From positions 1 through 35,837 of the forward strand of contig SICS01000011.1 of assembly GCA_009691305.1 (NCBI GenBank): a stretch of DNA of 35,837 bases. Direction: 5' to 3'. Shown piece after piece: positions 20,898 to 23,591 of the stretch. Below the pieces are notes generated by a model. That model was not told where the DNA came from. It did not search any database and saw nothing but the letters and a program-made list of their open reading frames with translations. This DNA is from Candidatus Peribacteria bacterium (lineage in GTDB: Bacteria > Patescibacteriota > Gracilibacteria > Peribacterales > Peribacteraceae). Numbering within the stretch: position 1 is the stretch's first letter; the number at the start of each line of letters is the position of its first letter. The position numbers were made by a program, and so were the translations under genes.

Positions 20898-20935
20898 TCA
20901 TTCAGTTGCGCCGGAGTTTCTGTATACTCGTCCAT

Positions 20936-22105
20936 ATGCAGAGCAGTGACCTCCTCACCCGCGGCGTCGCGAAACTCATTCCGCAGAAATTGGCGGAAGA
21001 GAAACTCGCGTCGGGAAAAAAGCTCCGTGTGTACTGGGGCATCGATCCGACAGGAACGAAGATGCATCTGGGGCACACGATTCCCATGCGTAAGCTGATG
21101 CAGTTCGCGAACGAGGGACATCACGCAATCCTTGTGATCGGCAGCTTTACCGCCATGCTCGGCGACCCGTCGGATAAGGACTCGATGCGCAAGCCGCTCA
21201 CCAGTGAGCAGGTGCAGAAAAACTTTGAGTCGTACAAGGAGCAAGCTGGCAAAATTCTCGATTTCTCAAAGATCGAAGTCCGCTACAACCACGAATGGCT
21301 GGCACCGCTCACCTACGTCGACATCATGAAGCACACGAGCATTTTCACCGTCCAACAAATGGAGCAGCGCGATGCCTTCGAGCGCCGCATCAAAGCAGGA
21401 AGCCCTCTCGGCGTGCATGAATTCCTGTACCCGGCGATGGTTGGCTATGACTCCGTCGTCCTCGATGTTGATTGCGAAATCGGCGGCACTGACCAGGAGT
21501 TCAACATGCTGGCGGGGCGAACGATGCAGAAAGCCTTCGGCAAACGCGACAAATTCGTTTTGACGACGCCACTGATCGAAGGCACAGATGGCCGCCTGAT
21601 GAGTAAAACATACGACAACTGTATTTGGCTCCAGGACAGCCCAAAAGACATGTACGGCAAGATCATGTCCATGAAGGATGAATTGATTTTGACGTACTTC
21701 AACTGCTGCACCGATGTACCGGTACAGGAGATTAAAGAGATCGAGAAAGGACTGAAAGGGAAATCGAACCCCAAGGATGCAAAAATGCGTTTGGCACGCG
21801 AGATCGTCGCGCTCTACCACGGGGCCGAAGCGGCCAAGCACGCAGAAGCGGAATTCACGGCCGTGTTCAGTGACCACAAACTCCCGGAAGACATCAAGGA
21901 AGTGAAGGCGGAGAAGGGGAGTGGGCTCCTGGACTTGATGGTGAAAGAGAAGCTCGTGACCTCAAAGTCCGAAGCGAAGAGGTTGGTCGAACAGGGGGGA
22001 GTGCACCTCAATGATAAAAAAGTGGTATCCATTACAGCCAAGATTGAAAAAGGGATATTGAAGGTTGGTAAAAGGAAATTCGTGAGAATAGACTTCCGTG
22101 GATGA
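20936..22105 (+). CDS. tyrS: tyrosyl-tRNA synthetase
   Basis: Charges tRNA-Tyr; class I synthetase. The product is 389 residues from ATG 20936. The HIGH motif is HLGH (44-47) in WGIDPTGTKMHLGHTIP. The tyrosine-pocket GGTDQEFN lies at 183-190. The KMSKS motif is LMSKT (221-225), slightly degenerate. An S4 RNA-binding domain occupies about 328-389 (DLMVKEKLVTSKSEAKRLVEQGG). Overall this is the TyrZ-like type. TATACT (20923-20928) lies 7 nt before the ATG, which supports this start over an in-frame ATG at 20906. No T-box leader fits in the 38-nt upstream gap. The stop overlaps the next ATG. Confidence 0.96.
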   Translation: MQSSDLLTRGVAKLIPQKLAEEKLASGKKLRVYWGIDPTGTKMHLGHTIPMRKLMQFANEGHHAILVIGSFTAMLGDPSDKDSMRKPLTSEQVQKNFESYKEQAGKILDFSKIEVRYNHEWLAPLTYVDIMKHTSIFTVQQMEQRDAFERRIKAGSPLGVHEFLYPAMVGYDSVVLDVDCEIGGTDQEFNMLAGRTMQKAFGKRDKFVLTTPLIEGTDGRLMSKTYDNCIWLQDSPKDMYGKIMSMKDELILTYFNCCTDVPVQEIKEIEKGLKGKSNPKDAKMRLAREIVALYHGAEAAKHAEAEFTAVFSDHKLPEDIKEVKAEKGSGLLDLMVKEKLVTSKSEAKRLVEQGGVHLNDKKVVSITAKIEKGILKVGKRKFVRIDFRG

Positions 22106-22428
22106 TTGGCTTGCACGCAAAGAACGGACGGCTGGAACAGTGTGTGGTTTCGCTTGAAAGACTCGGAGAGGCAGAGACTTTTAGTGATAGGCAGTCCATG
22201 CAGGCCGTGGATTTTTCGAGGGAGATTGTCTACAGAGCTTCTCGGATTTCCGAAAGCCTGCGGAACAAGATTATAGGGGCTTTTACACGGGCATTGGAAA
22301 AAATTCCTGATGATTTTGCCTTGAAACCACTTCTCTCGGCTTGCCTTCAGCGTTTTCACCAACAAATAGAACGCCGGACCATTATCGTGTTCAACGGTCC
22401 GGAAGATTCCTTCGATGATGATATTTGA
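22102..22428 (+). CDS. small hypothetical protein overlapping tyrS
   Basis: A 108-residue ORF whose ATG overlaps the tyrS stop in the sequence ATGA (22102-22105), the usual geometry for translational coupling. The product is soluble and mostly helical (SREIVYRASRISESLRNKI; FTRALEKIPDDFALKPLLSAC), ending acidic. I recognise no family. Base composition is lower in GC than tyrS. A longer minus-strand frame across the same bases lacks protein-like composition and runs antisense through tyrS. I therefore favour this ORF, with moderate confidence. Confidence 0.5.
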   Translation: MIGLHAKNGRLEQCVVSLERLGEAETFSDRQSMQAVDFSREIVYRASRISESLRNKIIGAFTRALEKIPDDFALKPLLSACLQRFHQQIERRTIIVFNGPEDSFDDDI

Positions 22429-22465
22429 AGGCAGGTGCGAATCCATGGGATTACGATGAAGCTCT

Positions 22466-22500
22466 AAAAATGGAGCCCACCGCGCGAGGCGATGGACTCC
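22466..22500 (-). terminator. intrinsic terminator of the small unit
   Basis: A 12-nt arm with GGAG and CCATCGC faces GCGGTGG and CTCC around a 5-nt loop, followed on the minus strand by ATTTTTA. One G-T pair and one small bulge. Confidence 0.65.
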
Positions 22501-22530
22501 GGGTTGACGCCCCCCTTCGGACAAAGAATT

Positions 22531-22587
22531 CTACATTTTCTTCATGGGTCCTCCTTTGAAAGGGGATCTCGACTTGCCATACCACAT
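22531..22587 (-). CDS. possible 18-residue basic peptide
   Basis: ATG at 22587 to TAG at 22531 encodes MWYGKSRSPFKGGPMKKM, with five K/R residues and no acidic residue. The ATG lies in the loop-closing part of a hairpin, which could hide it. An internal ATG at 22545 is preceded at 4 nt by AGGAGG but would give only four codons. Translation is unproven; the ORF may be incidental to a small RNA. Confidence 0.3.
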   Translation of the reverse strand: MWYGKSRSPFKGGPMKKM

Positions 22588-22605
22588 GGCAAAGTCGTCG
22601 GGAAA

Positions 22606-22633
22606 ATACTAAACCTGATCACTATTTTGTCAA
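22606..22633 (-). promoter_or_regulatory. promoter of the small unit
   Basis: TTGACA (22628-22633), a 16-nt spacer and TAGTAT (22606-22611), reading on the minus strand. It lies just after the stop codon of the Xer recombinase gene (22656). Confidence 0.55.
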
Positions 22634-22655: not shown

Positions 22656-23591
22656 CTACTTTTTCCCATGAAACTTCCTATGCACCTCTTTTAATTGAGG
22701 GTTTGTCACGTGCGTGTAAATCTGCGTGGTCCCCAGATCCTTATGCCCCAGCATTTCCTGGACGGAACGGAGGTCTGCACCGTTTTGGAGGAGATTCGTG
22801 GCAAAGGAGTGCCTGAGCGTGTGCGGTGACGGATCCGTGACGATGCCGGCTTCACGGGCGTAGCGCTTCACCATTTTGTAGATCCCGTTCGCGGAGATGC
22901 GGAATTCTTCTCCCGGCGGCATCGCGGTAGACGCTTTGTCGTGGTTGCGGATGAACAGGGGACTGAGATGATCCAAACGGCAGTCCATGTACTCCCGCAA
23001 GGCATCGGCAGCCCGGTCGCTGATGAAGACGACGCGGATCTTCCCTCGCTTCCCACGCACCGAGATCTCGCGCGTGTCGTAATTGAGATCTTTGCGATTG
23101 AGTCCCCTCAGCTCCGCGAGACGCAACCCGGTCGAAAAGAACAGGTGAAGGATCGCCGCGTCGCGTTTCCCCTCTTTTGATGACGTGTTCGGCGCTGTTA
23201 GGAGGCGCTCAAGCTCATCGGCGAACATCACTTTGACCTTCCGTGACTCCTCCTTGAGCCGCGTGACTCGGTCGGGCGGATAGACGTCCATCTCCTCTTC
23301 GCGGATCAAATACTTCAAAAAGGCGCGCAGAATGGTCAGATGGTGGTTTTTCGTCCTGACAGTGAGCTCTTTTCCGCTACGGGCTCGGAAAGAGTGTAGG
23401 GCGGACTTGTAGACCCGGATGGAACTTTTATCGAAAAGTCTAGGATCCGTGACATCGCTGAGTTTGATCAGCAAATCCAAACTCTGCCGATATGCGCGAA
23501 TTGTGAGTGGGGATTTATTTTCCTCCGCTTTAAGAAAGGTAAGATAACGTTCGATTCCTTTGGCCAGCGGTGAAGGGGAGGGGTTTTCCAC
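22656..23591 (-). CDS. xerC: XerC/XerD-type tyrosine recombinase
   Basis: Site-specific recombinase; XerC/D proteins resolve chromosome dimers at dif. The 311-residue product has a SAM-like N-terminal DNA-binding domain (about 8-105). All catalytic residues are present: R157 (TGLRLAEL), a lysine in the GKRGKIR hairpin (181-185), H257 and R260 (PHTLRHSFA), H283 (LGHKD) and Y292 (TTQIYTHV). Length and composition are typical of a housekeeping Xer rather than a mobile-element integrase, and no att-like duplication is seen. XerC or XerD cannot be decided. The start is GTG at 23591, 13 nt from a palindrome at 23605-23626. It is the last protein gene of the pgk-to-xer minus-strand series. Confidence 0.9.
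   Translation of the reverse strand: MENPSPSPLAKGIERYLTFLKAEENKSPLTIRAYRQSLDLLIKLSDVTDPRLFDKSSIRVYKSALHSFRARSGKELTVRTKNHHLTILRAFLKYLIREEEMDVYPPDRVTRLKEESRKVKVMFADELERLLTAPNTSSKEGKRDAAILHLFFSTGLRLAELRGLNRKDLNYDTREISVRGKRGKIRVVFISDRAADALREYMDCRLDHLSPLFIRNHDKASTAMPPGEEFRISANGIYKMVKRYAREAGIVTDPSPHTLRHSFATNLLQNGADLRSVQEMLGHKDLGTTQIYTHVTNPQLKEVHRKFHGKK

Follow-up and report, generated by a model that had tools for sequence, protein, structure and literature searches.

Autonomous small RNA genes in the intergenic DNA of bacteria, exemplified by the trans-acting small RNAs of Enterobacteria, combine a sigma70-type promoter, a length of 50-200 nt, stable hairpins and a Rho-independent terminator. Here we describe an intergenic unit with the same parts in a genome whose relatives are Candidatus Peribacteria (Peribacteraceae). 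Unlike those genes, the unit is not conserved even within its genus and is without a known target, and its transcript is a predicted one. Leader-peptide attenuators of amino-acid operons also hold a promoter, a short frame, hairpins and a terminator in less than 250 nt. In contrast to them, the unit has no downstream gene on the same strand, no frame at the leaderless position and no run of control codons. A third comparison is with the 3' UTR terminator of a protein gene: a strong terminator ends the unit 155 nt past the stop codon of xerC, on the same strand. However, a near-consensus promoter lies inside this interval, and such terminators are rare here.

We put at about even the chance that the unit is an orphan transcription unit specific to this species, with a mostly non-coding RNA as its product. 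We infer its transcription, the transcript ends, the non-coding nature and any role from the sequence and its predicted fold.

Parts and setting of the unit

The unit lies in the window (the whole stretch of 35,837 nucleotides that was analysed) on contig 31 of a 1.07-Mb genome that is 98.8% complete. It occupies the minus strand of the interval between xerC (minus) and the convergent tyrS side (plus). Its features and neighbors are as follows:

20906-22105, plus strand: tyrS
22102..22428, plus strand: 108-amino-acid ORF after tyrS, convergent to the unit
22464..22500, minus strand: intrinsic terminator with a 12-bp stem followed by ATTTTT, which might terminate xerC transcripts as well
22510..22566, minus strand: middle hairpin CCCCUUUC...GAAGGGGG with AAAGGA mostly unpaired inside (predicted fold)
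22531..22545, minus strand: putative mini-ORF ATG AAG AAA ATG TAG (MKKM), 4 nt past AAAGGAGG
22531..22587, minus strand: 18-codon frame MWYGKSRSPFKGGPMKKM, probably unused (start in a hairpin, 18 nt past the -10 box, no Shine-Dalgarno motif)
22550..22557, minus strand: AAAGGAGG, a Shine-Dalgarno-like octamer
22570..22597, minus strand: hairpin 1, CGACTT-GCCAT stem, holding the ATG of the 18-codon frame (predicted fold)
22464..22600, minus strand: predicted transcript, about 137 nt (from the fold; start, 6-7 nt past the -10 box, and end inferred)
22606..22611, minus strand: -10 box TAGTAT, behind a 16-nt spacer
22628..22633, minus strand: -35 box TTGACA, perfect match
22656..23591, minus strand: xerC, upstream gene, XerC/XerD-type tyrosine recombinase (Pfam Phage_integrase, 3.4e-43; NCBIfam XerC, 6.4e-70 but below cutoff)

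The promoter-like TTGACA-16-TAGTAT matches the consensus at 10 of 12 positions. The terminator hairpin (22500-22472) has a 12-bp stem with 8 GC pairs, a CTCGC loop and ATTTTT behind it, and is among the strongest in the 403 kb of the genome that we sampled (20 stretches of about 367 kb, plus the window). A sequence-only reading of this DNA had described a near-consensus promoter, hairpins and a terminator with a T run between convergent genes; all these elements are present and the position is as described.

On this reading, transcription by RNA polymerase with the housekeeping sigma factor would begin near 22600, directed by TTGACA-16-TAGTAT, and end at the 12-bp terminator (22500-22472), yielding a structured RNA of about 137 nt. 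This RNA probably does not code for protein; ribosomes might at most touch the four-codon MKKM frame behind AAAGGAGG. If it has a role, it would most likely work as an ordinary small RNA that base-pairs through its exposed AAAGGA loop; a young transcript with no role is an equal possibility.

The 108-amino-acid ORF that faces the unit has no relatives among 57 family genomes. Past its TGA, the frame (plus strand, 22102-22467 region) reads RQVRIHGITMKL up to the next stop, which resembles GGQARIHGISMSL, the end of the convergent gene at the same place in the sister species. It is possible that the ORF is a chimera or a broken gene end. As to a possible alternative genetic code with TGA read as Gly, TGA is the commonest stop among the called ORFs, although these were called with TGA as a stop.

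Chance expectation and predicted folding

How often would such a combination arise by chance? We searched for promoters matching at 10 or more of 12 positions that have, no further than 260 nt behind them, a stem of 9 bp or longer (6 or more GC pairs) and a T run. In the intergenic DNA of the 403 kb there is one such case, the unit itself, versus 0.01 in dinucleotide shuffles; the thresholds were set after the unit was known and the site was picked from much sequence, so this excess is support, short of proof. The promoter consensus is meaningful in this genome, because sites with at least 10 of 12 matches are about equally numerous in the non-coding tenth of the DNA (18 in about 10%) and in the coding remainder (19 in about 90%). 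Orphan promoter-like sites taken alone are not clearly in excess of chance, with four observed, including one on the rRNA promoter side, where 1.8 were expected.

Strong intrinsic terminators occur on 6 of 218 intergenic strands and on only one of the 50 convergent ones, namely that of the unit. This rarity makes a short transcript likely and favors a dedicated unit over a routine terminator of xerC. The main rival, which we regard as possible, is that the hairpin at 22500-22472 is the ordinary 3' end of xerC and that the promoter-like site is a chance match or an inactive relict. The distance and strand of the terminator relative to xerC are consistent with it, as are the near-shuffled rate of orphan promoter-like sites and the different sequence found at the site in both the sister species and a second congener. 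It has to contend with the near absence of such terminators after other genes and with the excess of promoter and terminator together over shuffled sequence.

Folding statistics point mainly to the terminator. The predicted transcript of about 137 nt has a minimum free energy of -56.1 kcal/mol (z between -3.6 and -4.1) and beats 200 of 200 shuffles. Folded alone, the terminator has a z of -5.1, and the unit without its terminator has a z of -2.7. Given the spread among 798 intergenic windows of 96 nt (mean z -0.67, sd 1.53, with at least 25 windows below -4.1), the fold without the terminator is only moderately unusual. According to these predictions, much of the stability of the unit's fold is that of the terminator.

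Comparison with relatives

The unit is not a member of a conserved RNA family. BLASTN against 40 genomes (39 of them relatives) matched its own genome only, and the three other congeneric genomes gave only chance matches of 14-24 nt. A covariance model of the whole unit found only a shared terminator, that of genome G047, among 57 family genomes, and nothing further among 353 genomes of the class. The G047 match (E 1e-5) was set aside because the common part is the terminator with a CGCCTCGCGCG centre and the 5' part is the end of a coding frame; another (G008, E 0.09) falls within a coding gene. The model without the terminator recovered the unit's own copy only in 40 genomes. Against 380 phylum genomes, BLASTN gave nothing above 20-nt matches, of which the exact ones in G175 and G327 were dismissed as chance or generic. 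These models were built from a single sequence, and a strongly diverged relative could escape them. BLASTN found no match to the unit in phages and plasmids, and its exact pattern did not occur in viral contigs. At the gathering threshold, Rfam 15 matched no family in the window, and with E up to 10 the sole hit, judged a chance one, was to a miRNA (E 4.3) on the opposite strand at the promoter; a tRNA/tmRNA search found none.

The sequence-only reading had recognised no known RNA family. It had also proposed covariance models as a check on conservation and had named lack of conservation in close relatives as what would refute the unit; the searches show just this lack, with no sequence or structure conserved in the three congeneric genomes or in the family, class or phylum samples. 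Its interpretation is partly upheld: a self-contained transcription unit explains the site best, in that the promoter-terminator pair exceeds shuffled sequence and strong intrinsic terminators are scarce here, but the functional readings attached to it are not supported. Since we found no counterpart in relatives, the unit probably yields a young transcript or one that has no function, and does not represent a new RNA family; a single copy does not permit a new family to be claimed.

The surrounding interval is itself a variable spot, as its differing content in two congeners indicates. In the sister species (G002), XerC is 93% identical and the xerC DNA 81%, and the xerC-tyrS interval holds a small membrane-protein gene and a different convergent gene. 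The second congener (G001) also has a related small membrane-protein gene, and its interval differs in sequence from the unit. In the present genome we could not detect the sister's small membrane protein. A dif site next to the xer gene was considered and dropped: in hairpin 1 the two arms are shifted by one base relative to each other, and the relatives inspected showed no conserved 28-bp site (two 11-bp arms) downstream of xerC.

Could the unit be a relict or orphan attenuator, that is, a leader (with its MWY... frame, alternative hairpins and a terminator) whose downstream gene was lost in a rearranged locus? The differing interval in both congeners examined and the small membrane-protein gene of the sister, which is undetected here, would fit such a history, and other intergenic promoter-terminator units here resemble leader-peptide attenuators (L119, L113 and L104). 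We nevertheless find it doubtful. Leaders elsewhere are leaderless and start 6-10 nt past the -10 box (18 nt here), and the 18-codon frame has one Trp codon and one Tyr codon only (TGG, TAT), with no run of control codons. No minus-strand gene lies directly past the terminator: beyond 22464 the strand is antisense to the 108-amino-acid ORF and tyrS, and the sole frame there is TTG-started and antisense.

The three attenuator-like loci deserve a description of their own; all are on minus strands. At L119 (about 17176-17000), TTGACA-16-TAAAAT is followed 9 nt on by the leader frame MKKSCCIIISSYYTRSTRM with its stop codon, and then by a terminator; this leader (YY) precedes a prephenate dehydrogenase (tyrA-like) gene, and the whole is a probable leaderless Tyr attenuator. 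At L113 (about 17525-17330), a promoter, a Phe/Tyr/Trp-rich leader frame (MSRSTHFYGFSWYFAFSAGTAAVCLS, then a stop) and a terminator-like CCCTC...GAGGGTCTTTTTTT form a probable aromatic attenuator; the 84- and 102-amino-acid ORFs behind the leader have no Pfam match. At L104 (17528-17921), TTGACA-17-TACCAT stands 6 nt ahead of a GTG frame (VIRILTSHRHHHHSS) for a His-rich, leader-like peptide; behind it come a 98-amino-acid ORF and a RibD-like gene, neither of them a his gene. Separately, several Peribacteria loci (L003, L007, L106) carry the repeat GTCATCCTGAGC... close to gene ends; it looks like a widespread REP-like repeat.

The Shine-Dalgarno motif and leaderless genes

Strong Shine-Dalgarno (SD) motifs stand ahead of 2.3% of first ATGs versus 2.8% of internal ATGs. 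As they are no commoner at first ATGs, the genome does not use SD. Hexamers resembling a -10 box peak 6-9 nt ahead of the first ATG, a spacing that suggests leaderless starts for many genes; judged from these patterns, the genome apparently uses mostly such starts. The 3' tail of 16S rRNA in Peribacteraceae is GGAACATCTCCTTACC or GGAACACTTCCTTACC, not the canonical GGATCACCTCCTTA (five family genomes; L127, L128, L129, L130, L131). The tail reads GGATGGAACATCTCCTTACC in these loci except L129, which has GGATGGAACACTTCCTTACC, and the anti-SD core CCTCC is altered. The altered anti-SD accompanies a lack of SD and the many genes that look leaderless. It is known generally that SD is also missing from organisms whose anti-SD is imperfect, according to the available part of PMC6107228, and that part does not name Peribacteria.

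The octamer AAAGGAGG pairs more weakly with the family tail (GGAACAUCUCCUU or GGAACACUUCCUU) than with the canonical one: the duplex is worth -11.6 kcal/mol with the canonical tail and about -8.7 to -8.8 kcal/mol with the altered tail, where 6-7 pairs remain possible. The genome's own 16S gene is cut off at a contig end, and the tail used here is that of relatives. Of the 19 occurrences of AAAGGAGG in the 403 kb, 16 fall within coding DNA. In the predicted fold, the unpaired probability is 0.7-0.8 for AAAGGA and 0.2 for the last GG of the octamer.

It seems to us distinctly improbable that the unit serves as mRNA for a very short peptide, whether MKKM or the product of the 18-residue frame. 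The octamer does stand 4 nt ahead of ATG AAG AAA ATG TAG and could still form its 6-7 pairs with the altered 16S tail; on the other side are a genome that does not use SD, the lack of a conserved frame in relatives, and an 18-codon start within a stable stem and off the leaderless position. An 18-amino-acid peptide is unlikely because its frame is so poorly placed. Least credible of all is the reading in which the strong SD motif lets the RNA titrate or mimic ribosome binding: AAAGGA is indeed predicted to be mostly unpaired, but with 18 more copies of AAAGGAGG in the 403 kb, mostly within genes, one short RNA would compete poorly, the altered family tail pairs more weakly, and the unit is not conserved.

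The sequence-only reading was right that the genes lack SD. It gave undue weight to the motif in the unit, given the number and location of its other copies; its ribosome titration or mimicry is unlikely in view of those copies and the altered anti-SD, and its mRNA for an 18-codon peptide in view of a start in a hairpin, 18 nt past the -10 box, where genes here start 6-9 nt past it. Very unlikely, in our judgment, is a newly arisen, species-specific structured RNA whose exposed AAAGGA loop would engage either the altered tail of 16S rRNA or some set of mRNAs in an SD-less Patescibacterium.

A limited literature search found no small-RNA work on Peribacteria. If transcribed, the orphan unit described here would count as a candidate small RNA gene of a Peribacteria genome, and as one more unclassified intergenic small-RNA candidate; being absent from all relatives, it has little promise as a general RNA family. 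The apparently leaderless genes, the altered 16S anti-SD and the putative leaderless leader-peptide attenuators of Peribacteraceae may matter more than the unit itself.
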